Assembly: GCA_021234155.1 (NCBI GenBank)
Contig: JAJEKV010000044.1
Span: 9,830,777 to 9,894,776 of the forward strand
Direction of reading: 5' to 3'
Length of the DNA stretch: 64,000 bases
Origin: Isoetes taiwanensis
Lineage: Eukaryota; Streptophyta; Lycopodiopsida; Isoetales; Isoetaceae
In this document: positions 10,152-61,188 of the stretch, in pieces
Layout: each line of letters opens with the position of its first letter
Position numbering within the stretch: the first letter of the stretch is position 1
The notes under the pieces: generated by a model
Told to the model about the DNA's origin: nothing
The model's database searches: none
The model's input: the letters and a program-made list of their open reading frames with translations, nothing else
Translations under genes and position numbers: made by a program

Positions 10152-13100
10152 TCATGCAGGACCTGCTTCCAGTATTTCCTGTGTGAGCTTAGGGTCTCCA
10201 ACACTATAATCTGTGAAATTTTCAAAATTTTTCTTGAACAGGCCAGCCAGCTTCTGCAAGGTGTTGTAATATGCCTTCTTATCACGCCACTGCATACAGA
10301 GTGAGGCATCTGTTAAACCTTATTTCAATTTAAGCTATTTCCGATTTTATTTAAATTCAATCTGATGAATTACCATATTCTCTGGCTGGAGAATTCCTGA
10401 AGGTACGCCCTCTACAGAATCAGGAACCTGCAGCCTAAATACTTTGGTCTCAGAATATTTTGCTTTCAACAATGAACCATCATGGATGGCATCAATGATC
10501 CTCCTTGTGTATGAAAGCTTCATTCTTGTTCCCGTACCATAGCTATATAGCCAAAATCATAAATTCAGGCCGACATATGCAAAACTAAAAAAGATTGAAA
10601 AACTTGGCCAACTAAAACAAATATTATAATTCACAGACCTCCCTCCACTCCAGCCAGTATTAACAAGCCAGGCAGTGGCACCATATTTCTGCATCTTATC
10701 AGCCAACATAGCTGCATATTTGGTGGGATGAAGCATGATAAATGCAGCTCCAAAACAGGCAGAGAAAGTAGCCGAAGGCTCCTTGACACCTTCTTCTGTA
10801 CCAGCAACCTGAAAGAACGAAAGCATTTAAAAACCCCAGAGATGTATGGAGAAGCACAACACCAGAGATTAAGCTTACCAGAGCTGTGTACCCACTAATG
10901 AAGTGGTACATTGTCTGAGCAAGAGTGAGCTTGCTAACAGGAGGCAACACACCAAATGCATCACAAGCAAGCAATATAATATTTTTAGGATGAGGGGCAA
11001 CACAAGGGATCTTAGCATTTGGTATATATTCAATTGGATAGGCCGCCCTTGTGTTTTCTGCAAATTTAGAAGGAAAGAAATTTGTCAGCACAGTGACACA
11101 ACTAAAAGGAAAACCAAGACACCATAAAGGAAGAGCAGTTTGCCTGTCACACTATTGTCGCCATAGTCCACTTCGCGTGAATGTTCATCAAAAACAACAT
11201 TCTCAAGCACTGCAACATAACCCAGGATGAGAAACATGCTATCATGGTAAACTGCGGATTACAATATGATCTCAACTACTTCAACCTGTTCCAAATTTGA
11301 TGGCATTAAATATATCAGGCTCCTTCTCCGGAGACAAATCAATACACTTTGCGTAACATCCTCCCTCAATGTTGGATACCCCATTATCACTCCAGCAGTG
11401 CTCATCATCACCGATTAAATACCGGTTCGGATCAGTTGAAAGAGTCGTCTTACCAGTTCCTGTTCAATAATACCAATGTAAAATCCAAAGTAATTATGTG
11501 CATACGCTTCACATGTTTCTTGTTGATGTCCTTCATAAAATACCTGATAATCCAAAAAATAATGCTACATCTCCTCCTTTTCCCATATTGCAACCTGAAT
11601 GCAAAGACAGGACCCCTTTTTTCGGCATGAGATAATGCATCAGGCTGAAAAGGCCCTTCTTCATTTCTCCAGCATATTGAGTCCCAAGAATCACCATCTC
11701 TTTTCGCCCAAGATTTATATCAATGCTAGTTGAGGATGTCATATAGTGCGTGTAACGGTTGCATGGGAACATGCCAGCATTGTAGATAGTGAAGTCAGGT
11801 TCACCAAAATTCTCAAGCTCTTCAGGAGTAGGCCGTATACACCTGCCATGCAACGCTTTCAATCCATGTTTCCAATCAAAAGCAAATTCGTGACTACCAT
11901 TCCAACCCTCAAAAGTACATATGGACAAAAGGAGAGAAAAAATTATACATGTTGTGCATAAACAATGAATGGTAGGCCCTTGCAGATATAATTCTGACTT
12001 TGATTTGATGCTCTGGGTCCCAATTCAAAAACTGGTCATTCACGAAAACCTAAAGAGAACCAAGATGAAAAGATCGGCCAAACTATGCAAATTTTATTCC
12101 TAAATGTTCCAAAGTAAAGCGTACCTTTTCCAAAGATTTTAAATAATCAACTGCCCTCTCACGGTTGACTAGGAAGGTTTGTTCATCCATTTCAATATTT
12201 GGAGAGCCCCTACCATAATCAAACAACAAATGAGCTACATATATGGAAACTAAGCAGCTTATATATTATCGAACTAGAAGATACTCACTTTCCCCACCAT
12301 AGATCATCAAAAGAAGTTTCCTCCTCCACAACACGTTTGTCCTTAGGAGATCTACCTGTTTTCGCTCCTGATAATGTCGCAAGAGCACCACTGGAAGTGA
12401 TGTATGATCCCTTTTCAAATTTGATAGCCTGTTCATAAAGTTCTGCAAGTGCAAACGAAGCAACAACCAAGAATCTGTAAATTCAAGATAAGTAAAACTA
12501 ATAGTGCATTAATTTCCAAGAAGCACAGGATGCCATGTGATAAAAAAATAGTGCACTATCTATGTTCGGGACGAACAGGATGTCATGTAAAGATCTGTAC
12601 CTCCCCTTCAGGTAATCCATTTTCAATATTGCACCTTGTAATTGGCTCAAATGAACCAAGTAGGCACATAGTTCGATAGAATACGGTAGATAAAGATGAT
12701 CCATAGAACAAGCAACGTATCAACATAATGAGAAAACAAATAATTGCAAGCCGGCAACCAAAAATACTCTAAGGAGCACAATAATTGTGTAATATCCCAA
12801 GCAAGTGTAATGCTCTAATCAGGAGAGAACAAAGATAAAATATTTGTACCTCCTGGTGATAGATTGTAAAGAATGTGAGTTAACTTGAGCGAAAAGTCTG
12901 TCATGTTGGGGCGTACAGGAAGTAAAGGCTTCGGAACAGAAACCTGTCCAGTCTTCTTCTCGGGATCACCACGGACGACCTGAGGCCCCCGTTCTCTTGT
13001 AAGAGATGCCAGGGAAGCACTGAAAACCAATAACATGATCAAGTTGCTCAAAGCTTCAAAATAGGAAAGTGTTGACTGTGCTTCCATACCTGACGGATTC

Positions 13101-19985: not shown

Positions 19986-20461
19986 TCAAAAGCATCTTAA
20001 GAAAGATGTGTTAGATGCGACACATCGAAAGCATCTAAAGCATCGAAGCATCTAAGTTTTAAGATGCGGTTAAGATGCATTTGAGAAAAAATTTAAATTG
20101 TCGAAAAATACCTTCACTCCATTGCAGCCTTAAATACCTTTGATCTATAAAGACTTTTAGAACTAAAACGCAGAATATATACGAATAATAGAAGAGAAAA
20201 TTGTTACAGATCTTGCTGTTACAGGTTTCTTGCTGCAAATCCTATTGCGTTGTTGCAGGTCTCCTAATCGGCTGCAACAGACCCTTTTTCTCTATTGCTG
20301 ATTTCCCAATACAAATGCAAACTTCTGGCCTAACTCTCGACCTCGTTATAGACCCTATAGACCCGAATTGTTGCCTGCCCCATCATCAACAAAGAGCTTT
20401 GAAGAGAAAATGGTTATAGAAGGCCAAAGTGGCACCAAACTGCACATATTTTAGAGTCAGC

Positions 20462-21797
20462 TGTGACGTTCCAAGTATTTATACGGACGTATAAATACTT
20501 TGACACGTCACCCAGTATAGATACGCCACCATGGGTATGGTAACCTAGGGGGTTGACCTAAAAGGGATTAAATTAGCTATGATCAGTAAGGATAATAACC
20601 TACAATTAAGGAATTAATATTTAAGAAGGATAATTAGGCTAATTATGGTTTGGGAAGCCACCCCGCCAAACTCGACACAAGATGGTGAATACTATCCGAA
20701 CCATTAAGGTGGATCACCACCCCCATATCAACCATAATCGATTCGCCAGAGCACCCAAGGAGCGCTTGAGTTTCCAAGGACTGTTGTCGACTCCCAAATC
20801 ATTTGAACAACCACTAGTCGTCACGCCACCCTAGTTACAAACAATATGGAAGCACCCCACGATAATGGTTCCAGCCCGAAACGGGTTAGTAGTAGTTTAG
20901 CTTGTGAATTGTAGGATAGTAACTTCATTACTCTTTCTCGATTGCCTTGTTGAGATTAACCCTTCTCGTGGTAAGTAGGATTACATTTCAATTATGAATG
21001 GTGCTCGCTAAGGAATGATCGATGTATCTATGAAGTATTTTTGAGCTTCCCTTAAAAGGGGGTTTAGGGGTAGAGACCTCTCGAGCTCATGTATGATAGT
21101 ATGTTCCTAGATAGGGCCCGTAATATTCCCATTAGATGTGGCTCAAGGTGACAAGAGACCACCGGTCAGAGACGCTTATGGTCTGTCTTAGCACCGCAGA
21201 AGGGACACGCTGGTGAAGTGGGGTGGGGTCTTGCACTAACATAAAAGGCCCCGAGACTCCTACATGGGCTAGGCCCGATAGCCTGGCCACGAGAGGGTCC
21301 GGGTATGGGTCCGACACTCCCCGGGTGTAGAGGTGTGATCCGTGATGGAGCATCTTGCACTTTGAGTAGATTTAGGGTGAGTAAATTGGCACGGATGCGG
21401 GGGTCCGGGATGCGCACGTATTCTCTAGCTCACCCATGGAACCACGCGGATCCTCGAAGGGGACGCTTCCCGACCTGCCTCATCGGACCGGGGCCATGAA
21501 CCCCGAATAGGCTCAAAGGGTGATACCTTGAGTCTCGTCTCCGGGAAGGCTATAGCGAAGCCATAGCGTGGATCGACCCATCCCAAAGTGTGCAATGTGA
21601 GGGGCGATGGAGTGGACAACCCTAGCCGATGTTCTATGCCAGCCAATGCCAGGTTATACCTCTGTCTGCTGATCTCTTGAGACCAAGCCGTCAGTCCATC
21701 CTCACAGGAGTCTGAACCGGTGTAGAACCTGGGGTTTGGGGTGTTTTCTTAGGTTTAGATGCATATTCTTTTGTCGTTGGTATTTGGATGGATGGTC
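20462..21797 (+). repeat. 5' LTR, first part
   Basis: Matches 40249-41577 of the 3' LTR from TGTGACGTTCC to GGTATTTGGATGGATG, where the nested block begins. Positions 20473-20500 form a 28-base near-perfect palindrome (13-base arms AAGTATTTATACG). Differences from the 3' LTR are mostly short indels at CG-rich spots. Confidence 0.9.
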
Positions 21798-23110
21798 GTC
21801 CTTATCGATACTTGATTTTCTTTTGTACCACATCTTAGTCTTAAGGTTCCTAGTCTTCTGGAATTTGAATGCCTCAGAAATAATTTTTTGTATAATGCAG
21901 CAGATGCCATCTTCCCCTTCAAGTGGGATTGATTCATAGCATTTAGCTATGTCAGCAACAAAGACACTAGAGATTTTGCTTGGTAAATTGAGAGCTACCT
22001 GATAAACGGAATCAATCATCCAGTTTGGGCTGAAGCCTTTGGGGCAGAATACATTAATATCCTTGGTCTTGCTAGCTGAGATATCAGGCCAGATGTTAAT
22101 AATAGATTTAAGGCCTTGTGTGATTAAATCTGCAATTTCAGTGAATGCCGTATTATGGGCATTAGTAATCCACCGGAAGGTGTTCTTGTGAGCTTTATAA
22201 ATCCCAAGAAGGTATGGAAGTGGTGGTAGCTCATCGGGTAAACAATCCCATTTCAAGAAACGAGACATTTCATTGATTAAATCCTTCTGTAAATCTGCTA
22301 CAGAATTAGTCGAAGCAATAAAGTCATGACTGTTCAATCTTTCTAATGCTAAATTCTTAGCCAATCTTGGGCATATAAAGTTTGCATTATTAGTTGCTTT
22401 ATCAATGCCAGAAATATATAGGTTTTTCTTAACCCATATTAATTCTTTTAGAGCCTCCATATCGTCTTGCAAGATGTAATGTCTGATCTTGCCTTTCATG
22501 CTGCTGAGGTATTCTGTCATAAATGTCAAAGCTCTTTCTCTTAAAGACGTCTCTATTAGTTGTAGAGTTCTAAGCTCAATATTTTTCAATTTAAATCTGT
22601 TCACCCTTAAAAAAGAGTGTAGACTGTCAATAACAGTGCCCATGCACTCGTTAATATCCATTTTTCTGTGCGAAATATGATTCAAACCCATCAAAAATAG
22701 ATTTCTAAGATTTTTATTACGTATGATGTTGCAATCAGTGGTCAGAACATGCTTGTAGTCTGGGTCAATATAATCTATCAGAGCTCTACTAGAGCAAGGA
22801 CAATTAGGTTCACGTTTATCTACAAACGTGTTGAAAGGTTTATAAACCAGACTAGATAGTTTCTCCATGTATTTCCACCCGAAAGTAGTGGTGTTGAGAG
22901 CCTCAATCCCTTCTTCACCAAAATGTTCCTGAATAATTGGAGACAATACATCTTTTATTCTGATGGAATCCATCAATCTGGAAAAGTATGTAAGATGTAT
23001 ATGATGTGTCTTGTTCTTTTCATTTAGTACCGTACAAATATGAATCCTGCTATTAATATCAACTTCAAGTTTTCTGGTCGTTTTATCCTCCAGTTCCTGA
23101 ACAATTAGGC
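21797..23110 (-). CDS. Atypical reverse transcriptase-like protein, 3' truncated
   Basis: The coding block begins after an acceptor (AATTGTTCAG) with ELEDKTTRKLEV, so its N-terminus is probably supplied by splicing. Visible features are a CPCSS motif, HVLTTDCNIIRNKNLRNLFL, then DKATNNANFICPRLA, LPPLPYLLGIYKAHKNTFRW (RT fingers) and SSVFVADIAKCYESIPL (RT motif A with the catalytic Asp). The same order of motifs, as I recall, occurs in poorly described RT proteins of cnidarians, algae and protists that may be related to Penelope-like elements. Motif C (YxDD) is missing because the frame enters LTR sequence at about 21797. The last ~30 residues of the open frame are LTR-derived and not part of the protein. 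Confidence 0.6.
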
Positions 23111-23524
23111 ATTTAAATAGTATCACTTAAGGAGATAATACACTTTATCTTTTCTACAGTAGAATCTTAAAGGAGTAAAGGCATAGTGAAGGACGTATGC
23201 ATGGATTATGGGTATAGATTGTTACAATGTAAAGGATGTGCCGAAAGGCATGTGTATATTCATGAGTGTAAGTGTGATAGAGCTAAATCCTGAGTTCAGA
23301 ATCTAAACACGATCATTTTAGGCTATAAAGCACATGTTCTTGTATATTATGGTCTGATTATAGGACTAGATCTCCATCATGACCTAATATCCGTTCAAAT
23401 ATGAATGAATGAACAAGCTAATAAATTCGAATACAACAAAGTAAAAAGCACTAAATTTAGATGTTTAGATAGTTTAAAAGAACATCAGTTATTATCATAA
23501 TCCTTTACGAAAAAGGTGACTAAC

Positions 23525-25209
23525 CTCGTTCACGTTTCTGTCAGATCTATTGTCTTTGGATCTGCTTCGAACATCCTAGAAGGGTTGCTCTTGGTAACAG
23601 ATGATTCTTCAAGTGCGCTGTGTATTCTGGTAACCTCAAAATTAGAACTCGAGGTGTTCATAGAGGTCCCTGCAGTCACAGAACTGGAGACATCAATTGT
23701 TTCTTTTGTGGTCTTAGCATATACTCTGGGTGGAAAGTAGCTGCCACTTTTGCTGGATGATGTAGTGCCAGCGTAACTATTACTGCCACTGAAGTTAACC
23801 CTTTTTTCTCCCTTTGTTATACTGGTTTTTCTTAGGGCCAGGATTCGTCCTAATCTTATATTCTGTGGGACGAAGCATCATATCCGCAATCAGTACCAGG
23901 TGGTCACTGCCGAACTTGATATTAGGGTCACATTTAGGATCCTTGCCAAATTCAATAGCCATATTAGACATGAGTTGTCGAAACCTCATATATGCTATCT
24001 GAGCAATAACAGCTTTCTTCAGGTTATTGGTCAGTAGATTAACCAAAGCAATAAAGGCATTGGTACATCCCTTTGTATACTCCTCTGGAAAAACCTTGTC
24101 AAGGTTGTTCAGCATGAACCAAACTGCCTGGTCAAACCAGGTGATGTTATCACCACATGCATCATCCATAGGTGGCATATCACATGCGCATTTAATGTAT
24201 GGAGCAAAGGACCTCCAGATTTTTCTCAGAATGAAATCTTCCTTCAGATTGACGCCCATGGCCATATGATTCTTTTGGTTACAATATAAACCATTGGGGC
24301 ACGGACAGCTTTTGCTAAACATTTGAGTGGTGAAGGGCACAAAGATTTTCTCTTTCTCCATATTGTATTCACCTTTATCTATTGTTTTGTATTCTTTTTC
24401 CATCAAGGTATCATTGATGTCTGCCAAAAATTTCCAAGCCTGTACAGATATGGGCGCACAAGTTCCCATGGTGCCCGTTTTCCAAAGTATCTGGTCATAT
24501 TCTTCACCTAGTGCTTCCACAACATGTGATGGAATCATAGGAAAAAGTGTAGTATTGTTCAAGTCTAGTCTGTCCTCATCATCTATTTCCACCGCTTCCC
24601 TTTCCTCTTCAGCAATGGTGTTATCTATGTTAACTATCTCAACATCTTCAGAAATTGTAGTAAAATCAGTGTTATCAGAGTTGTTACTTTCAAGGCCGAG
24701 GGTGATAGAGCTAAATAGACTGTTTCCCACGAACAAATCATTAGATTTTTCTACCACTTTCTCTTTAACAGGTGGTTTTCTTACAGCCTGCTTAACATTC
24801 TTTTTTCTTGCTGAATTCACAGCATAGGCTTGTCTTAAACGGCTTTCAGTAGCCTCAAAAGTCTGCTGCAATTCTATTTCAGCATTGGTTCGTGCACACA
24901 AAAGAAGACTTATATCTCTATACGTGTCATCAATCAGCTTGACGAATTCGCATGGCCTACTTTTCATTTTGAGTGCTAAAACTCCAAGCCATTCACTGAA
25001 CCCCAAGTAGGCAACAGCAGACAATCTGTAATCTGTCAAATTCATTTCAAGTTCAATAATTCTCTTGTGCATGCCATCGTTATTGAGGCAACAAAGCATG
25101 GTCTGAACTGCCTTGTTGGGAATCTGGCAGTTTAATGAAGGATAACCCAGTTTTCTAAGTTCTGGAACCCACAACATTTCTGTTTCATTGTGCTCCTCTG
25201 TCCTTGTAG
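23525..25209 (-). CDS. Long ORF of the RT element, unknown function
   Basis: The open frame runs from an acceptor (GTTGCAG before CCTACAAGGACAG) to a stop at 23795. A S/T-rich extension stays open in the +1 frame for about 90 codons to 23530, close to a donor GAG|GTTAGT. The protein has a Lys/Arg-rich basic patch (SARKKNVKQAVRKPPVKEK), an acidic segment, a Cys cluster (SCPCPNGLYCNQKN) and a second one (CACDMPPMDDAC), then a helical C-terminus ending in a basic tail. I do not recognise the family. Position before the RT suggests a Gag-like or nucleic-acid-binding role, by inference only. A run of six A at the frame change could be an indel error or a recoding site. Confidence 0.5.
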
Positions 25210-26624
25210 GCTGCAACACATGCATGATAATTATGTGTATTAGATATAGAAAGTACATTGAATCTGTACCTTTGCATAAGTTTATTCAAATCTCAGTTTA
25301 GTATAGTCATCATTTGTAATATAGAATAAAAATCAAACTTGAATTATGTCTTTGAAAGTAACAGTAAGAGTATTAAATGTGTAAGTAATGTGAGCTCATA
25401 AGCAGACTTCAGAGGGTATGGGTATCAAGTCCTAGAACTTGTTAACGGAAGTTTCAGCATATATACTCTATCTTAATACTAGGGTCTTATCTAGCATAAG
25501 AACTTACTACTACTAACTTGGTCTCTTGACCGAAGCTAGAGAGAGTCCATCCTGGCACTACCCAGGCCCATATTCTCTTGAATCAATTGTAGACAGTAAG
25601 TGAAGACAATCAGTTTAGACATATGAAGTACTTAAGAATAAATTAATTTTCCAGTGGGGGTATGATGATAAGTAGATGTCCCTATTAGGAACACAGAGAT
25701 ATCCAAGTGTATTAAGGAGGATAGACTGAATGAATGAAAACTGAACCTTTTTCTTTGTTCAGATCCTTCAGACATTTAACCTGCAGTAGATATCTCGTGT
25801 ATTTGAGAAAATCTCACCTGTATTTGTGATACTGCAGGCTGCATGTTCAAGAGGCCTGTATGTCACCCAGACCCTTTGTTATAAGAGTATGGTTCCAATA
25901 AAGAATGTACCATCTTACCTTTAAGACGGCTTATTGGGGAGCCTGTCCTGTAGAGACAAGAAAGTTCCTTAACCTCCATGCATGAAGCTCGAGATCTAGG
26001 CATACACTTGGATATAGGTGAAGGAAACGTAAATAATATGAGTCAGATAGCAAACTTAATTTACTTGTGCATTACCATAGTAAATTATATTTAGATCTTT
26101 TGGAGACATTCCAACCATTATCGAAATATGAGTCAATGGTTAAGACAGATTATTTTAAAAGATATGACCTTACTAGTTTCATGAAAATGACCAAGTATAT
26201 GGGAGTTTAAAAGCTTTTTCATGTAATATTCCATTATATCGATCAGCTTTAAAATCCATCACTTATAATGAACATATTAATACTGGTAACCTGCATAGAG
26301 TAGGTTAACAAAATGGTTCATTAAACTAAACTGTATCATTATATGGTGTCCAAAAATTATGGTCAATATGTTCTTATTCCTACAGATCAGATTGAAGCAT
26401 CCATCATATGCTTAAGATCCCAGCAATAATGCAGAATAGAAATATATCATGGCTATGCTATTGCAAGTACATGAAGCGAGATAAAAAAGGAAACATATGG
26501 TTTCATCTTGCTGTTCAAAGAGAAACTGGTAGTCTTCACTCCATGAGATCATCAGCGATCCCCATTTGAAGTGTTCGTCCAGGTGGTCCATAGTACATAC
26601 ATTCATCACATATACATGTAATAC

Positions 26625-26746
26625 AAAGGGAGGGTCTCCACGTTACCTGCAACCAACCAGACATACATTAGCAAATCTATGGTAATGATGAGAGGGTCGT
26701 CAGGTAAGCAAGGGAGATAGAGCCTCAGTTTTTATCCTGCTCCTTT
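26625..26746 (-). other. 122-bp block identical in both copies of the RT element
   Basis: This block and 62428-62549 are identical base for base by eye, whereas flanking sequence is clearly diverged. On the element's strand it contains TCTGGTTGGTTGCAG followed by GTAACGTGG, that is, back-to-back acceptor and donor consensus. An open frame with LPDDPLIITIDLLMYVWLVA crosses it. It may be an exon boundary, a splicing regulator or a structural RNA site. Confidence 0.5.
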
Positions 26747-26992
26747 TGATGTATGAAATAATGAAAGGATGTAAAAATCATAAACAAAACAAAACATAAC
26801 AGTATGTTTGCATGCATGCAAATATTCGTATTTAATGCTTAAAGCAAAGGAACGGTATGAGAAAAGTATGAGAAAAGTGGAGTCAGCCTAAAGTAGAAAC
26901 TTTCTTGCTGTCATAACTTCAGTAGACTATGAACTTTCAAGAATGTGACACTAAGATCTGTAAGGTTGCTGAAAGAATTCTTCCAGTAGATA

Positions 26993-27292
26993 TTAAGCAA
27001 AGAACTCAGTGGAAATGATAAAAAGAACCTCTTGTGTCGCCTGTAGCAAGTTCTGGTCCTCCAAATCGTTTGAAGGGACTGCTGGATTGTTGTAGATAGG
27101 ATTATTTTTTGGATCATCCGCCTCTGTCATAGCCTTGGCATTTGCAGCTCTAGCTAAGCATCTCTTGATTATTTCGGCAGCATTGGCATTTTTACTCTGT
27201 GTAGTACTGTTTCTAGGGATGCCAATATCCTTTCTGGGAGCCTTATTCTTTGCCCCAGGTGGCCTTCCGGACTTGCGCTTCACTCCACTCAT
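26993..27292 (-). CDS. AT-hook protein of the RT element
   Basis: The ATG at 27292 starts MSGVKRKSGRPPGAKNK, an AT-hook-like motif (basic, GRPxG) expected to bind the minor groove of AT-rich DNA. About 80 further residues are rich in Asn, Ala and Lys. A donor-like AG|GTTCTT near 27030 suggests the real exon ends there. An upstream small exon (27526-27375, MPNTLNRKIQMICAGDG) ends at a donor GAG|GTAATGG, which is also conserved in the second copy. In the second copy (near 63075) the AT-hook frame is broken by indels. Confidence 0.5.
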   Translation of the reverse strand: MSGVKRKSGRPPGAKNKAPRKDIGIPRNSTTQSKNANAAEIIKRCLARAANAKAMTEADDPKNNPIYNNPAVPSNDLEDQNLLQATQEVLFIISTEFFA

Positions 27293-28176
27293 GGCCGGAA
27301 TAGAGACAAGCAGGAGAAGGAGTATGATACGAAATGAAGGAATGGGATATGAGAAGAAGACCATTACCTCAAAATCGAAACTCATTAATGCTGTATTTCC
27401 CTTAGATTTAGTTTTAAATGTAGGTAGGAGAATGCCGGAAATACCTCTGACCCTGAGTGGCTTGCAATCAAGTCTGCCGTCTCCAGCACATATCATCTGT
27501 ATTTTCCTATTCAATGTATTCGGCATAGTCTGGCAGTGGTCCAGACCCTAAGACCATTGAATACCATATGAAATATGAAAAATGAAATGTGGTTTTAATC
27601 CCAGCATAAAAACCTTAGAAATTACGATTAGTGCAATGCCCTTATGTTCAATATGGAACCACGAATATGTCAGAATCCATGGTAACTTATCTTTCGAATG
27701 CACCTAGTAATGTTAGTATGATAAAAATCTTAAATCCTCATACTTAGAAATCCCAAGACTATGGTATTGGTAGGATTAACAAGGCCGTTAATGGAAAAAC
27801 TCACAAACGAAAGTGAAACATAATCAACAAGAATAAACCTATGGTATGGTTGCCCACCATTTTCCCATAGATCTGTCTATAGATTAGTGTAGTTTGGATT
27901 ACATAAAGATGGATCCTATAGGTCCCCCCCATTTTGGCTTAAACAAAATATTATGGTTATCTACCTTATAGTAATGACATCACATGTAGTTCCCATGATA
28001 AAGAGATATATGGATACACATATAGTCATAGATGAACAGCTTAACTGGGTCAACTGGTGAGCTGGTGTCAGACCTCTACTGTGCCTTATCAAGCTATATT
28101 CTTAAAGTCAAATAAGTCAGTCAGTTCCAGTCCCATATATATTTATATTTATATATGTATATATGTATATATATAT

Positions 28177-29464
28177 ACAAGAAAATTAATACGTCCTACG
28201 GCGCATTGTTCCAGTTTTAGCATGTTCTTACGATGTAAGGCCCTATAGTGCTCTAGATAACCAACGATTCTACTGAGATTCTCTTGGATTCTCCTAGATT
28301 CTCTTAGAATTTTCTATTTTGATTGAGGTGCTTACCCATGAGCATTTAAAACCTTCTAAAATTATCTATTTTGGATCTATGCAACATTTTTAAAACATTT
28401 TCTATTTTTAGACTAAGGCGCTTACCTTGGGCATCTAGAATATTTTTTTTTCAAGATTTATATTGTACACCTTTATTATGAAACATTTTAGAACATTCTA
28501 TTGTCGCTCTTTGCAAAATCTTAAAACCCATGAGCATTTAAAACCTTCTAAAATAATCTATTTTGGATCTGTGCAACATTTTTAAAACATTTTCTATTTT
28601 TAGACTAAAGCGCTTGCCTTGAGCATCTAGAATATTTTTTTTTTCAAGATTTATATTGTACACCTTTATTATGAAACATTTTAGAACATTCTATTGTCGC
28701 GTTTTGCAAAATCTTAAAAAAACTCTAAGATTTCATCAAGATTTTTTTTACATTCTCTTAGATATTATGAAGATTCCCTTAGATTCAATTAGATTTTAAG
28801 AGATTCCGTTAGACTTGTATATTTTCCTAGATTCTCTTACAACTTATGAGATTTCCTTATATTCCCTTTAATTCTTCTGGATTCCCTTACATTCTAGAAA
28901 TTTCTAGAACATTTTAGAACTTTCTGGAACATTTTGAAAGTTTCAAAACATCCTAGAATATTATAGTCTATTTTATCTTAATTAAAACATTACCCTTAAG
29001 TATATTTGAAACATAATTTTTTCATAGAATTAATGCTTGGTCTAGTGGTTAGAGTGGGGGGTTTGGGGGGTTGAGGACCAGGGTTCGAATCACCCCAATA
29101 ACATAAAAAATTTTAAAAGCCTTTCCTTAAGGAACGAGCATTCAATATGAGCCTTAGGATCTTAAACTCGATCAACGATCAAGATCTCATCATATAAAAG
29201 CAATATGAGCCGTAGGATCTATTACATATAATTCCCAAAGCCACGCGGGACCGTAGGGATGTGTCCCCAAGCCATGTGAGCCGCCGGATCTCGGACCGAC
29301 GCCAAGATCGGGGATCAATCGACCGTGAGGGACCGACGGTACATATTATATGTAAACTCCCGTGCCATTCGGGCCGTGAGGATACGCCCCAAATCCACGT
29401 GAGCCGCCGGATCTCGAATCAGGACTACGGATAAGCGACAAACATAAGAACATATATAGATCAG
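28177..29464 (+). mobile_element. TA-microsatellite-flanked element, copy A
   Basis: Starts ACAAGAAAATTAATACGTCC and ends GACAAACATAAGAACATATA, with (TA)n on both sides. The inside has degenerate TTCTCTTAGATTC-type repeats, a duplicated ~230-bp segment (about 28330-28520 and 28530-28715), a tRNA-like module at 29034-29096, and repeats of GAGCCGTAGGATCT. It is nearly identical to copy C in inverted orientation at 59901-61190. Flanking by TA microsatellites resembles rice Micron elements. No transposase is present. Confidence 0.65.
29034..29096 (+). ncRNA. tRNA-like pol III module in copy A
   Basis: TTGGTCTAGTGGTTAGAG fits the A-box and GGTTCGAATC the B-box, ~40 bases apart as in a tRNA gene. 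The anticodon arm is replaced by a G-rich run (GTGGGGGGTTTGGGGGG), so it cannot be a functional tRNA. It is a tRNA-derived promoter such as those that drive SINEs. Confidence 0.6.
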
Positions 29465-29484
29465 ATATATATATATATATATAT

Positions 29485-30133
29485 ACAAGAAAATTAATGC
29501 GTCCTACGGCGCATTGTTCTAGTTTTAGCATGTCCTTATATTCCCTTTAATTCTCCTGGATTCCCTTACATTCTAGAAGTTTCTAGGACATTCTAGAACT
29601 TTCTGGAACATTTTGAAACTTTCAAAACATCCTAGAATATTATAGTCTATGTTAATTAGAATATTACCCTTAAGTATATTTGAAACATAAATTATTCATA
29701 GAATTAATGCTTGGTCTAGTGGTTAGAGTGGGGGTTTGGGGGGCTGAGGACTAGGGTTCGAATCCCCCCAATAACATAAAAAATTTTAAAAGCCTTTCCT
29801 TAAGGAACGAGCATTCAATATGAGCCTTAGGATCTTAGACTCGATCAACGATCAAGATCTCACCATATAAAAACAATATGATGGTAGGATCTATTACATA
29901 TAATTCCCAAAGCCATGGACCGTAGGATGTGTCCCCAAGCCACGGAGCCGCTCCGGATCTCGGACCGGACGTCGAGGAATCGATCAACGGACCGTAGGAC
30001 CGCAGACACATATTATATGTAAACCCCGGGCCATGGGGGGTGAGGATACGCCCCAAACCCACACGGAGCCGCTTCCGGATCTCGAACGGACGGTCACGGA
30101 TAAGCGCGACAAACATAAGAACATATATAGAGT

Positions 30134-30135
<2 letters not shown>
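29485..30135 (+). mobile_element. TA-microsatellite-flanked element, copy B (internally deleted)
   Basis: Same ends as copy A, but ~680 bp is deleted after AGTTTTAGCATGT; sequence resumes at CCTTATATTCCC. It retains the tRNA-like module (29709-29769) and the GAGCC repeats. It is followed by a ~60-bp TA run and then by the remaining part of the 5' LTR. Confidence 0.65.

Positions 30136-30195
<60 letters not shown>
30136..30195. repeat. (TA)n microsatellite
   Basis: About 30 TA units forming the junction between copy B and the second part of the 5' LTR. The intact 3' LTR has only a short TA run at the corresponding place (about 41592). Confidence 0.95.
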
Positions 30196-30198
<3 letters not shown>

Positions 30199-30361
30199 CA
30201 TCGGCGTGGGCGAATGACACCTCCGGTGGTGTCCTTCACTGAGCATCTCTATGTAGATGGCCCTGTCGACGGAGGGCCCCGCCATGGCGAGATGGTTGCC
30301 ATAGGAGGGAAAGTCCTCGTATATATACGCCCGGGTCATTACATATTCGTGGGCGTCCACA
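30196..30361 (+). repeat. 5' LTR, second part
   Basis: Matches the last ~175 bp of the 3' LTR (GCATCTCTATGTAGATGGCC, GGCGAGATGGTTGCCAT) and ends GTCCACA where the 3' LTR has GTCACA. About 70 bp present in the 3' LTR between the two parts is missing here. Confidence 0.85.
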
Positions 30362-30364
30362 AAG

Positions 30365-30378
30365 TGGTATCGAGGCCG
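30365..30378 (+). other. Primer-binding site
   Basis: TGGTATCGAGGCC starts three bases after the LTR end. It resembles the complement of the initiator-methionine tRNA 3' end (TGGTATCAGAGCC) with a small deletion. The second retroelement has TGGTATCGAGCC at 50425, so the variant is shared within this family. Confidence 0.7.
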
Positions 30379-31125
30379 TGATTTTGATTGCCGGAATCAT
30401 AGCATCGACCAAAACCCTAACTCGTTAGTTCGGTAGTTAGGTGGAAGTTAAGCTAGTGTGATTGTTTAGCTCTTTGATGTTTGGTTTCATTGCTAGGTTA
30501 ACATTAGTAGGGTGTAAGTCTTAATAAGTTTAGGGCAACTGGAGGGCCCAAGTTTGGAGGGGTTATAAATTTTTATAGGTAGTCTAGATGAAGGAGAAAG
30601 TGAGTCCATTGGATCCCGCGATCCCAAATACCCTAGGATACCGTCCGCGGAAAAATGGTCCTTTAAAGGCCGAGGAAAGTCAACTCCTGGGCGCCGCTGA
30701 TTTTTGTCGCCTTTGCGCCGTGGTGGGGAGTTTAAAATGCCGTTTACGCGGATCAGACCGCCGCTGAGTCAACCCGGCCCGAAGTCAACCCGGGCACCGC
30801 TTGTCGACCCTTAGTCGGGTGGAGCTGGCCAGAATGTCGCTTCGTAGCCGAATCGCATTTTTCGGCGTATTCTGCCAGATAAATATTTTTTTTTTTAAAA
30901 AAAAATAATAAAAAAGTTAATAAGAAAAATTTTTAAAATTTAAAAGTTAGCGGCCGCTAAAATTATTATGTCCTTTGCCTTCAAACGCCCCACTCGTTAG
31001 ATTCGACACCGCCATACCACGGACTTGACTGTTCCTCCACCTTGGTTCTTCGCTAACCCTAGCCTTCACTACCGCTTCCTAGTCGCCAAGCCCTAACTTT
31101 GTTCCTCTAGACCTCGGCCATAGCC

Positions 31126-31371
31126 ATGGCCAACACCAAGAGTACCGTGGACCCCGCTACCCTTACCATAGCTCAGATCTATGCCTTCATCGCCAAGCAC
31201 ATGGCTACTGACCCCGCCTTGATTGATATACTTTTGGACGAGTTGGTAAACAGATTTGAGAACAATGATAGGATTTCCTACCCCATTTACCATTACTCAG
31301 GAGCCGCTTTTGGTCGCTCAATCTCCACAGACTTCCTTACACCATGGCGAAGCAACCCGACTTGGTCATGA
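31126..31371 (+). CDS. Start of the extra ORF between PBS and the H3-like region
   Basis: Good-context ATG (AGCCATGGCC), then MANTKSTVDPATLTIAQIYA and a helical region. The frame breaks at 31371. A Glu/Lys-rich coiled-coil-like stretch (EEDLRERFGEYKEEQERIQK) follows in another frame at about 31700-31830. It may be the N-terminus of a polyprotein that continues into the H3-like domain. The family is not recognised. Confidence 0.35.
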   Translation: MANTKSTVDPATLTIAQIYAFIAKHMATDPALIDILLDELVNRFENNDRISYPIYHYSGAAFGRSISTDFLTPWRSNPTWS

Positions 31372-31992
31372 TGTTGATTAGTTCTACCTCCGGAATGTGA
31401 AGGACACACCGAGGAGGAGGACATAAGAAAGAGGCCGATCAGATTAGAAATTTGGGCGTGGAAGATGACCGCAGAGAGATAGAACCCAGCCGATCTATGT
31501 CCGAGGTAGGGAATACCTGTGATCTTGGGGATGGAGTTGCTGTTATAGATGGCGTGGCCACCCAGATTCCCCCATACCAATGGCATGAAGCTTCTCGAAA
31601 GCTTCACGTGGGAGAGATTCCCGACATCCATGTAACGACAATCCGCATCGACATGAACCAGCCGCCCGATCGATACCATGTTTGAACTCCTTCACAAGCA
31701 GAAATGGACGATATAATGAGATTGAAGAAGACCTCCGTGAGAGATTCGGGGAGTACAAGGAGGAGCAGGAGAGGATTCAAAAGGAAAAGGAGGGAGAAGG
31801 CCCGCAAGAAGAGCCGGATCGCGGGTGATGGGGGATCGGGAGTGGGCGGGCCCACCCCCAAAGCGAGCATACAACCGCTAAGCAACATAGAAATCAGAGT
31901 CCGAAAGTCCCAAGTAGCCTAGTACAAGGAAAAAAAAAGTTGAGGACCCATCCGCTTTTTGGAAGAAACGCAGCCCACGGAGGCGTGAGCCG

Positions 31993-32382
31993 GTGGATGC
32001 GTTGGGGCCAAGACGGTACACGGCTGCGAGAGGGGCCGCCTCCCAACCCCCCGCCCCACAAAGGAAACCCCACGGTACGACTCCCAAGATCGCCTTCACG
32101 GAGATCCGTAAGTTTCAGTGGTCCACCCAACTTCGACGTCACTTAAGCCCCTTCGAGGCAGGTTGGTTAGTTGAGACGCCCAAGAGTTTAAAACCGACCT
32201 CCTTTCCGGACTTTTTGCCATCCCGGGCGCTTCCAAGAGGGCTGCGGAGGGCTCATTTGGTGGCACTCTTTGGTGACGCCAATCTTTGCGCGATCCACGC
32301 AAAGAGGGTCACCATAATGCAAAAGGATTTAGCCCTCGCCCGCAGGATTAGGGGGAGAGCATCCTTAGCAAATTTTATCTGA
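31993..32382 (+). CDS. Histone H3-like domain inside a Ty3/gypsy element
   Basis: The frame gives a basic, Pro-rich tail (RKPHGTTPK), an H3 alpha-N segment ([12 protein letters not shown], cf. ALREIRKYQKST), then after a compensated frame shift QEFKTDL (cf. QDFKTDL), [18 protein letters not shown] and [20 protein letters not shown], almost the H3 C-terminal helix sequence. Loop 1 is of canonical H3 length, not the longer CENH3 type. The middle (alpha-1 to loop 1) lies in another frame between about 32185 and 32240, so the copy has paired indels or sequencing errors. It sits between PBS and gag in the sense strand and ends at a stop. A role in chromatin targeting or particle assembly would be speculation. 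Confidence 0.7.
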
Positions 32383-32560: not shown

Positions 32561-33945
32561 ATGGCAACCAATCGACCTACTTGCATGGTACCAAGATGGA
32601 GAGCATTGGGATCCATAAAAGTGCCCTTCGATTTGTTACGGCCCTTGCTATGTCGTACGCTTTGATCTCATCACTAATATGCAAAGCACCCGTGACTATG
32701 CCTGATTCCTAGAGTTTTTACATGCAGGAGATGCTTCCTTTGTGTATTCCTCTTGGGGATCCTCCCGATTCTATCTAGAACGGGATGTGGTCCCGATATG
32801 CTGGGGGTGACACCCACGCGCATGATGTGCTGAAAAGAAAGCTTAGATGGGCAAGCACACCGCCCTGTGCAAAGATCGTGGGCATAATATCTTGAAGTTG
32901 CTTTCGCCTTTAGCCATCCTCATGGATCAATATGTTGAGGATGAGACCTTGCGGGCAGAGAAAGGCAAACTTCCTGAATCTTCGAGGAGGGAGAAGATGA
33001 GCATATAGGCACGGGTGACTTCACCACCGGGAAGCGGTTATGAGGAGATGCCACCACGGGGGAACAAGTCGCGACGCTTGTTAGGGCTAGACGCCCCTTC
33101 GGGATTGGTATCACCAAGGGCAAGAATATCTTCTCTTGATGATATCATCCGACCTATCACATGGTAGCCGGATTTGCCGGCAGTAAGGACCATGTACTCT
33201 ATGAATTAGCTTGAGTATTGTATGGATGACTTCATCGACTTTGTCTCCTATTGAGCTTCCTCCCGAGGTGCGGCGGTTTACTCCAATTCCACCAGAGACC
33301 ATAGAGCCACCGAGACTTTGTTATGGCTTCTGAACCGGTGATGCAGATCCGCCTCTCGGCCCTCACCGGATGCCTTTACAGCCTATGGGACCTCATGTCC
33401 CAAATATTAATATGGTCGAGGTTCCTCCTGGTCTGGATGAGGAGGAGAGGATCTATACCATAATCCCCGCCATTTGAAGGAAGAGCATCGTGAACTCAAG
33501 GAAGAAGAAGTCCCTATGGACTTAGACAAGGAGGTGACCACGCCGAGACCCCGCAAAGGGAAGGTATTGGGAAACCACCTTACTCGCTTCTTCTTATCAG
33601 CTTTTCGACAGGGCAAAGTTCTTTTTATAGCCCGAGACTTAGGCCTGAGGAGGCTTCATGGTGGACCCTCCGTGCTTTTTCCACCTTGGCCGGGCACAAG
33701 AAGCTTCCCATCGTACATTTACTTATGTACTTTCGACGACGCGATCTTGCCCCCGGGCCTTGGGACAAGACATTGCACCCCGGATGAGTATGAAGCTCCC
33801 ACGGCGTGCCCCATTGCCGCTGCCTATCCGGCCGCAGGTTGCCACCATTGTTTGCCACACGAGAGACCGGGGGTGACTCTCGCGCACACCCCATCGCCAC
33901 CACCTCCTCGCCTATGGATGAAGAGGGGGGACCCATCTCTTAGAT
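32561..33945 (+). pseudogene. Second extra coding region of the chromovirus, broken
   Basis: An ATG at 32561 (MATNRPTCMVPRWRALG) opens a short frame. Protein-like pieces follow in different frames (FVTALAMSYALISSL, ILKLLSPLAILMDQYVEDET, LKEEHRELKEEEVPMDLDKE). It has a Pro-rich C-terminal part. No family is recognised. It may be an additional Gag-like or accessory ORF that has decayed or been corrupted by indels. Confidence 0.35.
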
Positions 33946-34074
33946 AATTGTATTACGATTTTGTATTATGATAGTTGTAGAATTTTGGGTTGGCATTTCC
34001 TTTAGCCATTCTATAGTTATGATATACCATCTTCTTATCAATTGTGACTATTGTATCAATGAATACAATTAAAA

Positions 34075-36799: not shown

Positions 36800-37445
36800 C
36801 TGTGTACTAAGCCTACCAGCAAGGCCCCGTACCGTATGAGTCCCCCTGGAGTTGGCGAGCTTAAGAAGCAACTTCAGGAGTTACTAAACCTAGGTTTCAT
36901 TCGACCTAGTGTTTCAGCTTTGAGCTCCTATTCTTTTTGTTAAGAAAAAGGATGGCTCCTTGAGGATGTGTATTGATTATCGCCAACTCAACAAGCATAC
37001 CATCAAGAATCGCTATGCTTTGCCTAGAGCAGATGACCTTATGGACCAGTTGCAAGGGGCCAAGTATTTCTCAAAGATTGATCTACGCTCCGGGTACCAT
37101 CAGATAAGGATTAAAGAGGAAGACATTCATAAATCTGCCTTTCGCACTAGATATGGGCATTATGAGTTTACCGTTATGCCTTTTGGATTAACTAATGCCC
37201 CCGCAACGTTTATGCGATTAATGAATGATGTCTTCCGACAATACTTGGATGATTTTGTTGTTATTTTCTTTGACGACATTCTCATCTATAGTAAAACCCT
37301 AGAGGAGCATGAGAAACATCTTTGGTTGGCCCTACAAAAGCTAAGACGCCATCAGCTCTTTGCCAAGTTCTCTAAATGTAAGTTTGCCACTCCCAAGATG
37401 GATTATTTGGGCCATGTCATTTCTGCAGAGGGAATTACTTTCTGA
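36800..37445 (+). CDS. Reverse transcriptase domain of the chromovirus
   Basis: A run in several frames ([28 protein letters not shown]) leads into a long open frame from 36960: [54 protein letters not shown], the catalytic box [20 protein letters not shown] and [11 protein letters not shown]. The box reads FFDD where Ty3 elements usually have YIDD or YLDD; both Asp residues are kept. It would synthesise cDNA from the element RNA. Confidence 0.9.
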
Positions 37446-37990
37446 GATCAGAGCAAAGATAGAGGTAAGAAGGGAATGGCCTATTCCAAAGAAATATTTC
37501 GAGGTCCAGAAGTTTCTTGGGATTAGCAGATATTATCGGAATTTGTAAAGGATTTTGCAAAGATTGCAAAAGACCTCTTACAAATCTTACTGGCGAAGCA
37601 TGAGAAAGTGAAGGATTGGATGGAGCAATCGAAGGCAAAGGTTCGGGGAATTTCCAAAGAGCTTAAAGATGCCTTAACGTCAACACCAGTTCTCACATTG
37701 CCCGATCCCGAGAAGGATAAACTAGTGGCAAGCGGATGCGATAAGATTGCCACTTAGGTGGAGTCCTAATGCGGGACGAGAGGGTTATTGCCTATGATTC
37801 AAAGAAAATGAACGAGGCGGGCGGAACGATACCCCTACCCATGATCGGGAATTGTTAGCCGTTGTCCGTGCCACGGGTGGATATGGAGACACTACCTTCT
37901 TGGTAGAAGATTCCACCGGATACTGGATCATCAAAGTCTCAGATTATTTATCCACCCGGCAAGAATCTCAACCTCCGTCGGAGGAGATGG
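37446..37990 (+). pseudogene. RNase H domain of the chromovirus
   Basis: Follows RT after a frame change: QKFLGISRYYRN, then LTSTPVLTLPDPEKD, a degraded catalytic strand, MNEAGGTIPL-like sequence and HDRELLAVVRA-like pieces in different frames. At least three indels. Confidence 0.65.
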
Positions 37991-39040
37991 ATGGAATTTT
38001 CGGAGGAGTACGATTTTGAGATTATGTATAAGCCTGGCAAGCACAATGTCGTTGCGGATGCCTTGTCACGCCATCCCTTGGTAACCCGAACCTATTGTAA
38101 TGCAATTTCTACACTCACCAGTGAGTTTGGGAAACAGATAGAACAGACCTTGGCCACGGATCCCGAGTTCCGTGAAGTTTGGGATAGTTTGGCTAAGGAA
38201 GCTTGCACAGATAAGGAGCGTGAAGCTTTCTGTTCGTATAAGAAAGAAGGCAACTTGCTATATTACAAGGATAAGTTGTGTGTACCTGAGACTTCAGGAG
38301 TACGTAAGCTGATTCTCCATGATACCCACAACAGCCCTATAGCTGGACATGCAGGGTTTATGAAGACCTACTTTAAGATCCGCTCCAGTTATTTCTGGCC
38401 TTCGATGAAGAAGGACATTGCCAAATACATTAAGCAGTGTCAGATGTGTCAACAAACCAAGGCTGCGCAATTAAGGATTCCAGGAGAGTTACAACCGCTG
38501 GACGTGCCCAATGCTAAGTGGGAAGTGATAACCATGGATTTCATTGTAGGCCTTCCACGTACTCTCCGTGGATACGATGCATTAATGGTAGTGGTCGACA
38601 AATTGTCAAAAATGGCTCATTTCTTACCCTGTCGAACCACGGATACAGCCTTTGACACCGTGCTGCTATTTGCAAAGGAGATCTTCAGGTTACACGGAAT
38701 GCCACGAGTTATTATATCCGACAGGGATCCCAAATTCGTAAGTGCATTCTGGAAAGATTTCTTTGCCACCATCCAGACCAAGCTTGCTATGAGTACGACA
38801 TATCATCCTCAAACAGATGGTCAGACAGAGCGTACCAATCGCATTATAGAGGATATGCTACGAAGTTATGTGTGGAGTAAGCAATCACAATGGGCTGACT
38901 ATATTTACCTGGTCGAGTTTGCCTACAACAGCATGAAACAAGAGTCTTCCCGAATGTCTCCCTTTATGATAAATTATGGTTATCAATGTCTTACTCCAGA
39001 TACATGGCATAATCCCATTTCTAAAGTGGAGGTTTCTTAA
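37991..39040 (+). CDS. Integrase of the chromovirus
   Basis: A 349-codon open frame starts within the RNase H/integrase connection (YKPGKHNVVADALSRHP). The HHCC zinc domain is complete (HDTHNSPIAGHAG, CQMCQQTK). The DDE core is intact: ITMDFIVGLP, ISDRDPKF and DGQTERTNRIIEDML. This enzyme inserts the cDNA. The frame stops at 39040, just before the GPY/F-like region, which continues in another frame (VWLKIKVKQAK, KKLAPRWAVQKLL). Confidence 0.92.
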   Translation: MEFSEEYDFEIMYKPGKHNVVADALSRHPLVTRTYCNAISTLTSEFGKQIEQTLATDPEFREVWDSLAKEACTDKEREAFCSYKKEGNLLYYKDKLCVPETSGVRKLILHDTHNSPIAGHAGFMKTYFKIRSSYFWPSMKKDIAKYIKQCQMCQQTKAAQLRIPGELQPLDVPNAKWEVITMDFIVGLPRTLRGYDALMVVVDKLSKMAHFLPCRTTDTAFDTVLLFAKEIFRLHGMPRVIISDRDPKFVSAFWKDFFATIQTKLAMSTTYHPQTDGQTERTNRIIEDMLRSYVWSKQSQWADYIYLVEFAYNSMKQESSRMSPFMINYGYQCLTPDTWHNPISKVEVS

Positions 39041-39234: not shown

Positions 39235-39660
39235 ATGGGCCGTTCAAAAATTATTGAACGTGTTGGAGAGCAGGCATATCGCTTGGATTTGCCTCCCCGC
39301 TTGAAGATCCATAAGGTCTTTCATGTGAGCCTTCTGAAACAGCACACCCCTGATCCAGAGGAGGTTTTGGATACCCCAACCCTCCTAGAAATGACAGAGG
39401 AGCAGCTGGAGATAGTGCCTGAAGCTCTTCTTGATCGGGCTTATAAACAAACCAGAAGGACTCAAATGTTGCAATACTTGGTTAAGTGGAAGCACTTACC
39501 AGTTGAGGATGCTACCTGGGTGATGAAGATAGACCTTGAGAAGCACTATTCGGACTTCATGCGGGAATCTCAAGGCCGCACCATCAACGATGCTATCAAC
39601 CCCGCAGCCGGCGGTAAGCTTGGAAGCTTGATTGCCAAGAGTAGCGCTCTAGAGGGGTAG
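39235..39660 (+). CDS. Integrase C-terminus and chromodomain
   Basis: Starts in the GPY/F module (AYRLDLPPRLKIHKVFHVSL), then the hinge and a chromodomain (VPEALLDRAYKQ, LQYLVKWKHLPVEDATWV). Chromodomains direct chromoviruses to particular chromatin marks. In the intact element this would be the C-terminus of the pol polyprotein. Confidence 0.9.
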   Translation: MGRSKIIERVGEQAYRLDLPPRLKIHKVFHVSLLKQHTPDPEEVLDTPTLLEMTEEQLEIVPEALLDRAYKQTRRTQMLQYLVKWKHLPVEDATWVMKIDLEKHYSDFMRESQGRTINDAINPAAGGKLGSLIAKSSALEG

Positions 39661-40248: not shown

Positions 40249-41825
40249 TGTGACGTTCCAAGTATTTATACGGACGTATAAATACTTTGACACGTCACCC
40301 AGTATAGATACGCCACCATGGGGTATGGTAACCTAGGGGGTTGACCTAAAAGGGGTAAGGATAATAACCTACAATTAAGGAATTAATATTTAAGAAGGAT
40401 AATTAGGCTAATTATGGTTTGGGAAGGCGCCACCTGGCCAAACTCGATTGGCCAGCATGGTGAATACTAATTGGAACCATTAAGGTGGATCACCACCCCC
40501 ATATCAACCATAATCGACCCGTGAGCACCCAAGGAGCAAATTGGCCCAAGGGCTATTCTTCGACTCCCCAAATGTTGAACAACCACTAGCGTACAGCCAT
40601 TTTGCCACCCTAATTCTGACAATATGGAAGCACACGATAATGGTTCCAGCCGAAACACGGGTTAGTAGTAGTTTAGCTTGTGAATTGTAGGATAGTACTT
40701 CAGTACTCTTTTCTGGTTGCCTTGTTGAGATTAACCCTTCTGTGGTAAGTAGGATTACATTTCAATTATGAATGGTGCTCTGTTAAGGAATGATCGATGT
40801 ATCTATGAAGTATTTCGGTAGCTTCCCTTAAACAGGGGTTTAAAGGGGGTAGAGACCTCTGAACTCATGTATGATAGTATGTTCCTAGATAGGGCCTGTA
40901 ATATTCCCATTATTAGATGCGGCCTTGTGTGTACAAGAGACCACCGGTAAGTGAGGCGCTATGGTGCTTAGCACCCGGAGAAGGGACACAAGTGGTGAAG
41001 TGGAAGTGGGGTCTTGCACGAACATAAAAGGCTCCGAGACTCCTACGGTGGGCTAGGCCGATAGCCGGTCCGCGTAGAGGGGCGGGTATGGGTCACGACA
41101 CTCCATGGGTGTAGAGGTGTGATCCGTATGGAGCATCTTGCACTTTAAGTAGATTTAGGGTGAGTAAATTCGCATGCGGATGCGGGGGTCGGCTGATGCG
41201 GCACGTATTCTCTAGCTCACCCATGGAACCCTTGTGATCACGGAAGGGGACGCTTCCCGACCTGCCTCATCGGACGAGGCGTCATGAACCCCAGGTAGGC
41301 TCAAAAGGGTGATACCTTGAGTCCAAGGCGTCTCGGGAAGGCTATAGCATGGATCGACCCATCCGCAAAGTGTGCACAGGGGAGGGCGGATGGAGTGGAC
41401 AACCCTAGCCCGATGTTCTATGCCGACCAATGCCGAGTTATACCTCATCACTGATCTCTTGAGGCCCGATGAGTCCATCCTCACGAGTCACGAAGGGGTA
41501 GAACCACGGGGTTTGGGGGTGTTTTCTTAGGTTTAGATGCATATTCTTTGTCGTTGGTATTTGGATGGATGCGCCACCCTTCGTGGTGGTTATTTATATA
41601 TATATAATTTATGCTGTGTGCTAACCTTGTATTCATGCTTCCGCGATAAAGGAGCCCATCGAAGGCGTGGGCCGAATGACACCTTCGTGTCCTTCACTCG
41701 AGCATCTCTATGTAGATGGCCCGGGTCAGACGGAGGGCCCTGCTCATGGCGAGATGGTTGCCATGGGAGTGGAAAGTCCCCGTATGTATACGGCCGGGGG
41801 TCGTACATATTCAGGGAGCGTCACA
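40249..41825 (+). repeat. 3' LTR (1577 bp)
   Basis: TGTGACG...CGTCACA, uninterrupted. It carries the same palindrome at its start as the 5' LTR and a short TA run near 41592 that marks where the nested block entered the 5' LTR. Followed by TSD TCAGC. Confidence 0.92.
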
Positions 41826-41999
41826 TCAGCAGTACTAAGCAACCTAATCCAAGTGTCTTTGGCAAAAAAATATTTTTTGAAAAAATAGGTGAAGCATCTA
41901 TGTCAGATGCGGGTGTCGATGCGCACACATCTACATCTAAGCATCTTATTTTAAGATGCGCACATCTTACGAACTTAGGAACAGAGTAAGGGGCCCACA

Positions 42000-59765: not shown

Positions 59766-61188
<1,423 letters not shown>

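Follow-up and report, generated by a model that had tools for sequence, protein, structure and literature searches.

The window, by which we mean the whole 64,000-nucleotide stretch of Isoetes taiwanensis DNA analysed here, holds an old copy of a Ty3/gypsy chromovirus with a decayed gene ending in a histone H3 fold. The features of the element are as follows.

20457..20461, no strand: 5' target-site duplication, TCAGC
20462..21795, plus strand: first part of the 5' LTR, starting TGTGACG and matching the 3' LTR
21796..30195: later insert (about 8.4 kb) splitting the 5' LTR, the LTR match resuming at 30196
30196..30361, plus strand: second part of the 5' LTR, ending CGTCCACA
30365..30377, plus strand: decayed primer-binding site of the tRNA-Met type (TGGTATCGAGGCC)
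31126..32363 (end approximate), plus strand: ORF0, a frame-broken gene for an N-terminal domain, a basic linker and an H3 fold
31993..32382, plus strand: the ORF originally reported (GTG start, 129 aa), the decayed C-terminal third of ORF0
32065..32361, plus strand: H3 histone fold part of ORF0, covering the homology of the reported ORF
32561..33947 (extent approximate), plus strand: ORF0b, a decayed second accessory ORF, its frames read against the ORFs of two other copies, L023 and L011
36006..36311, plus strand: gag C-terminal zinc knuckle piece (zf-CCHC_2, E 0.00088, below the Pfam cut-off)
36924..37445, plus strand: reverse transcriptase piece (RVT_1, E 5.2e-36, on 36960-37445)
37907..39040, plus strand: integrase piece (Integrase_H2C2, E 9.4e-21, and rve, E 7.6e-08, on 37991-39040)
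39235..39660, plus strand: integrase C-terminus with chromodomain (SH3_Tf2-1, 1.6e-12; Chromo, 2.7e-08)
40249..41825, plus strand: 3' LTR, beginning TGTGACG
41826..41830, no strand: 3' target-site duplication, TCAGC

The LTRs have TG..CA ends, begin with the same TGTGACG (at 20462 and 40249) and are bounded on both sides by TCAGC, in agreement with the matching LTRs and target-site duplication given in a preliminary description of this DNA. The sense-strand position between primer site and gag that it gave for the H3-like ORF is equally clear: the primer site lies upstream at 30365, and the zinc knuckle, reverse transcriptase, integrase and chromodomain detected by Pfam follow downstream in Ty3 order. 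In relatives the primer site reads TGGTATCAGAGCC, and the site presumably corresponds to tRNA-Met. The LTR pair is 84.7% identical across 1384 columns (20462 onward versus 40249-41571). Over 1260 aligned sites (20462-21795 versus about 40249-41573) there are 76 indels to 68 substitutions, an unusual excess of indels, and by eye the differences cluster in GC-rich stretches. Either real decay or long-read error could be the source of this odd mix; assembly error as the cause of the frame breaks in the window's ORF0 was set aside.

Read by eye in the window translation, the chromodomain appears to lack two of the three cage aromatics, for which we follow the naming (Y24, Y48) of PMC3350952. In group II plant chromodomains, as described in PMC6317226, the first and usually the third cage aromatic are absent and the binding partner is unknown. 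Elsewhere in the window, the insert at 21796-30195 contains an array (28135-29485) that is repeated in inverted orientation at 59880-61231 with 96.7% identity, and it also holds, on the minus strand, two ORFs of considerable length, 474 and 496 aa (within 21702-25285), neither with a Pfam match. Exons of a phosphoenolpyruvate carboxykinase gene are found at 10699-12024 and a Pif1-type helicase piece, as in Helitrons, at 6683-7507, both on the minus strand.

The reported ORF and the longer gene ORF0

Pfam assigns the reported ORF to Histone (E 1.4e-11), and among solved structures its best match to an H3 chain has E 3.7e-19. Across the window, a canonical H3 query found a single meaningful place (E 5e-20; next match, E 0.14), and frameshift-tolerant alignment to H3 gave scores of 246-286 with four different frameshift penalties. 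In the control, run at the penalty that gives 266, 60 other places in the window scored no more than 50, and the H3 similarity is therefore far above chance; a chance open frame as the source of the likeness was rejected on the E value of 5e-20 and the frameshift-tolerant scores. The central claim of the preliminary description, an H3-like fold inside a Ty3/gypsy chromovirus, is thus upheld. Its identification of the 129-aa ORF with that fold holds in part: the ORF exists and resembles H3, but it is not a continuous H3 and makes up about one-third of the gene. A change of frame sets the segment with QEFKTDL and helix 2 (about 32158-32247) apart from the ORF's ends, and because loop 1, together with the last part of helix 1 and a large part of helix 2, differs in frame from both ends, the reported ORF is not a readable H3. 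Likewise, the canonical length claimed for loop 1 is seen in 14 aligned element copies, but in the window ORF loop 1 falls in another frame. The substitution of Q for P before KD, which had been offered as evidence of divergence from host H3, has to be given up: the residue is P in 14 of 15 aligned relatives and L in the other, and the Q is private to the window copy, a matter of copy-specific decay.

When a protein search was limited according to query length, the hits were H3 relatives of unremarkable appearance, with identity no higher than 52% among 120 listed of 2255. With the query lengthened upstream (X at stops, scoring over the H3 part only), 49 proteins were obtained, including P0126, a 373-aa protein from a 2953-nt contig, probably of another species. 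Between 31126 and 32355 the window runs collinear with P0126, whose residues 1-250, the part before the histone fold, score 203 against window positions 31050-32000, compared with maxima of 53 at 98 other window places and 64 for 100 shuffled queries. The H3 fold in the window is therefore the C-terminus of a longer gene, ORF0, which starts at 31126, about 870 nt upstream of the reported ORF, and which is broken in this copy.

ORF0 in other copies of the element

With P0126 as query, the genome of 1.66 Gb in 1110 contigs gave at least 216 matches. Among the best 110 of 9724 candidates, which were scored, many are open frames of about 400-500 codons with no internal stop, and the best is 64% identical to P0126 over residues 129-371. 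Twenty places of 10 kb each were fetched by similarity to P0126, so that the P0126 match in all 20 (from residue 1-8 to residue 371 or 373) is no test of the gene's presence. Upstream of ORF0, sequence like the window's LTR is found in 20/20, and in 17/20 a TGGTATC primer site directly follows the LTR-like end, with ORF0 starting 633-776 nt after it in the 11 full-length copies that have both; other copies thus carry the ORF in the place where the preliminary description had advised looking for it. Gag or pol pieces lie downstream on the same strand in 15 of the 20 (by tblastn over 10 kb each: zinc knuckle in 15, reverse transcriptase in 13, integrase in 12 and chromodomain in 7). L015, L018, L021, L022 and L027 gave no same-strand gag or pol match within 10 kb, and L022 has reverse transcriptase and integrase matches on the opposite strand. 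Open pieces of L016, L028 and L011 include Ty3_capsid, Retrotrans_gag, a retroviral protease (RVP_2), RVT_1, RNase H, rve and Chromo by Pfam, with gag, protease, reverse transcriptase, RNase H and integrase in Ty3 order and, in L028, the chromodomain at the integrase C-terminus (Chromo, 4.9e-09).

In twelve of the 20 fetched copies ORF0 is full-length, at 394-421 aa, and free of interruptions. L011, with an open 411-aa frame, is a thirteenth intact copy outside the 12 passing the motif filter, and ORF0 is broken or lacks a start in the other seven. LTR pairs or target-site duplications among the 20 were delimited in full for L010 (duplication TCCAT; LTRs 92.3% identical over 1658 columns) and in part for L025 (about 98% over 571 nt) and L020 (90-98% over about 450 nt), and from these identities at least one intact copy is fairly young. 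Two copies also have an ORF0b of 489-492 aa between ORF0 and gag (L023:3586-5064 and L011:4860-6329 (minus)), which has no Pfam match.

Copies were also selected by the leader, independently of H3. With the L018 sequence from primer site to ORF0 start as query, the best 40 of 1893 candidates were scored, L018's own locus and the fetched copies L023 and L017 among them. The downstream part was covered for 27 of these 40: an H3 fold lies there in 26, the query's own locus included (19 from the P0126 or canonical-H3 lists, three from the P0162 list and four from short stretches), and one, L051, has none within the 301 nt looked at. L053 was negative in 301 nt, yet has an H3 fold further downstream by the P0162 search, and in L052 and L056, two of the four short-stretch copies, the H3 pieces are visibly decayed. 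The sample stands for one subfamily, that of L018, which is the nearest to the window copy (77% DNA identity with L018), and it too bears out the expectation that family members share the ORF. ORF0 is a gene of a multi-copy Ty3/gypsy chromovirus family, located between the primer site and gag.

Element and host H3 are well separated. When the best 150 of 9022 candidates from a genome search with canonical plant H3 were scored, 15 host-type genes stood out at 96-98% identity over residues 1-136 (270-274 bits), followed, after a gap down to 188 bits, by at least 135 element-type folds at 71-86% identity. The match of these 135 to canonical H3 starts mostly at residue 20 or later, and their context was seen where they coincide with the 20 fetched copies. 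The gap and the late start make the element H3 a distinct, tailless form. Near-identity to a host H3 gene, which the preliminary description had named as a sign of one-off capture, was not found: aligned element folds are 81-86% identical to canonical H3 (73% in L028), versus 96-98% for the host genes. In genomes of this kind, a tally of histones takes in many genes that belong to elements.

The ORF0 protein and selection on its H3 fold

The ORF0 protein consists of an N-terminal domain, a basic linker and an H3 histone fold, the last giving a Pfam Histone match of 1.3e-40 in L018. In all 12 full-length copies the canonical N-terminal H3 tail (ARTKQTARKSTGGK...) is replaced by the N-domain and linker, so that the tail is lost up to about residue 36, K9 and K27 included, as the preliminary description had anticipated in speaking of a changed tail. 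The start Met is followed by A-x-T-K, as in the H3 N-terminus, in 11 of the 12 intact copies (among L010-L025) and in P0126; this echo may be meaningful or may be chance. An ARKS motif occurs in the linker of only 2/12 copies, and a general tail mimic is therefore not supported. The linker contains 23-32% K/R in the measured stretch of the 12 copies. Residues 10-230 of the N-domain are predicted to fold, mostly with a pLDDT of about 90, and no match was found for the N-domain. The H3 part has a pLDDT of about 50 in the better model and 70-82 in an earlier one, and a search with the better model of ORF0 against PDB chains, histones among them, gave no match reaching E 0.001.

At the sequence level the fold is complete, with alphaN and alpha1-loop1-alpha2-loop2-alpha3 at canonical length, in the part where the structure model is weak. 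Fourteen element copies align to canonical H3 without gaps over the fold. Loop 1 has its canonical length in all 14 and shows no CENH3-type insertion, unlike the fungal CENP-A-type rows of the alignment, and a CENH3 origin was rejected on this ground. Changes common to most of the 14 copies fall at positions 86, 87, 89, 90, 102, 105, 107 and 124; L90, we presume, recalls plant H3.3 rather than H3.1.

Pooled pN/pS over the 66 pairs of 12 intact copies was 0.082 for the H3 fold, 0.324 for the N-domain and 0.464 for the linker, and the corresponding median pairwise dN/dS values, from which pairs with saturated dS drop out, were 0.026, 0.086 and 0.268. These values lie far below 1, the outcome that the preliminary description had proposed checking for across copies. 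For the reverse transcriptase, pN/pS was 0.046 (five copies, the window included), and the constraint on the H3 fold is of the same order as that on the element's own polymerase domain. Five copies have identical H3 folds at the protein level, with dS of 0.04-0.20 between them. The 12 copies of the selection set (L011 was left out by the filter, L028 and L029 because the N-terminal part was not open or not found, and five others were also left out) were chosen by similarity to P0126 and by open frames, which biases the set towards conserved copies. Between subfamilies, however, pairs of H3 folds have dS from about 0.5 to saturation with dN staying at 0.01-0.15, a pattern unlikely to come from this bias. 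Constraint on ORF0's H3 fold is strong, and purifying selection keeps it nearly unchanged. Many copies, separation from host H3 and dN/dS far below 1 agree with the long residence in the element proposed earlier, as opposed to a recent accidental capture.

P0126 has the same build as ORF0, an N-part followed by an H3 fold, and in a tree of H3 folds from which the host H3 genes of the Isoetes genome were left out, the element copies and P0126 lie on one side of one branch (support 91/98). P0138, P0144 (Adiantum nelumboides), P0149, P0151 and P0162 form a group of their own (97/93), with P0131 inside it, and P0155, P0159 and P0163 form a separate group (93/87). Like ORF0, these eight proteins have a long N-terminal extension before the H3 fold; five of the eight start with MARTKQTA, like H3 itself. 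In the P0138 group this start is present in 4/5, then comes a long insert and then an H3 fold with helix 2 altered, and such fusions may be another mobile-element or variant histone. Among the best 138 of 8115 candidates for P0162 in the Isoetes genome, none but L057, another ORF0, covers most of the P0162 N-part. P0155, P0159, P0163 and P0168 are further long H3 fusions, on contigs of 7,720 to 222,567 nt, and P0152 (260 aa) joins an H3 fold to a BED zinc finger, a combination that brings hAT-type transposon proteins to mind.

Possible roles of ORF0 and known systems

Our preferred reading, held with confidence just short of even, is that ORF0 works as an element-made H3 variant that would enter nucleosomes with host H4 and counteract silencing of the element. 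ORF0, which comes before any other long ORF downstream of the primer site, would be made early, its H3 fold would pair with host H4, and the protein would be laid down on chromatin, the element's own included. Nucleosomes containing it could not carry the host's H3K9 or H3K27 silencing methylation, the linker would thread out at the tail's place and display the N-domain, and the outcome would be anti-silencing of the element. More doubtful is the full version of this idea, in which a tail-swapped H3 would enter host nucleosomes, block the silencing methyl marks and also show a new folded domain on the chromatin surface. If true, it would make a histone a working gene of a retrotransposon lineage, with the parasite rewriting the nucleosome itself.

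A nucleosome free of marks fits with a tail that is lost and a fold that is kept almost perfectly, and for this reason we prefer anti-silencing over a role in integration. That role is rather unlikely in our estimation and is nevertheless a serious rival: the H3 fold would anchor ORF0 in host nucleosomes, the N-domain or linker would bind integrase or capsid, and new copies would land in chromatin holding ORF0, giving the element, with its chromodomain, two chromatin contacts. The chromodomain may, as read by eye, be of the group II type described as having an unknown partner (PMC6317226), a gap that a second chromatin-contacting protein would fill, but a tether would not obviously need the whole H3 fold to be kept almost residue for residue. 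The same conservation bears on the idea, which we consider distinctly improbable, that ORF0 is a soluble mimic that is never deposited and weakens silencing by occupying H3-H4 chaperones or H3-modifying enzymes. The element folds do differ from plant H3.1 at 86, 87, 89 and 90, presumably the region by which chaperones distinguish H3.1 from H3.3, and the A-x-T-K start found in 11/12 copies and P0126 is H3-like, but a decoy need not conserve the whole fold, last helix included, at a pN/pS of 0.082.

Less probable again is a function in the particle, with ORF0 acting like a nucleocapsid or condensing cDNA in the particle and the pre-integration complex. Its place upstream of gag and its basic linker (23-32% K/R in 12 copies) would suit such a function, but a capsid and a zinc knuckle are already provided by Gag, and without H4 an H3 fold by itself would not be expected to be stable. 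Passive capture, in which a fragment of host H3 was trapped once and then carried along, has very little probability: host-gene capture by LTR retrotransposons is on record (PMC13317346), and the window copy is broken, but the fold has been kept in many copies of diverged subfamilies at dN/dS far below 1, host H3 is clearly apart from the element folds, and P0126 has the same fusion. A host H3 pseudogene or one-off capture was rejected on the number of copies, the dN/dS and the distinctness of host H3.

The preliminary description knew of no Ty3/gypsy element with a histone fold, and none was found for any LTR retrotransposon in the full texts searched, which leave out most subscription papers. 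The nearest precedent is H3L, an H3-like gene of a hAT transposon of Pyrenophora tritici-repentis (PMC3538342). H3L too is an H3-like gene present in many copies of a transposable element, differs from both H3 and CENH3 and is reported to have tail insertions. It is described there as a separate ORF in 26 very similar copies, possibly drifting, flanked by terminal inverted repeats, whereas the Isoetes gene encodes a fused H3 fold, belongs to an LTR retrotransposon and is found in diverged subfamilies under purifying selection. Transduplication of the hAT H3L type was ruled out by the LTRs and gag-pol, in place of a hAT transposase and terminal inverted repeats.

Plant chromoviruses, as described in PMC6317226, PMC3350952 and PMC2864245, share with the Isoetes family the LTRs, the primer-binding site, the order gag-protease-reverse transcriptase-RNase H-integrase and the terminal chromodomain. 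A figure legend of PMC2864245 lists, for some element, a further ORF whose function is unknown; no element-encoded histone is named in these descriptions as far as they extend, and the Isoetes family adds ORF0 and ORF0b before gag. In an orchid Ty3/gypsy lineage, an additional ORF encodes an AlkB demethylase (PMC12786077), likewise a host-type gene of epigenetic control in an LTR retrotransposon, but an RNA demethylase instead of a histone.

Histones rank with the most conserved proteins of the host, and part of the silencing of retrotransposons works through H3-tail marks. An LTR retrotransposon with a tail-swapped H3 gene of its own, in many copies and under selection, would have a direct way onto the nucleosome, and whether a mobile element evades H3-tail silencing by supplying the nucleosome becomes a testable question. 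Histones from a virus-like agent also occur in the histone multiplets of giant viruses, to which we take the IMG/VR contig L001 to belong. By our own reading, the H3-like part of L001 lies within a 356-aa multi-histone-like protein, and, unlike in the Isoetes element, none of its six listed ORFs is retroelement-like. The ORF0 proteins, by comparison, are natural, long-evolved H3 fusions, with a long linker and an N-domain outside the fold, that can be set beside host H3 variants.
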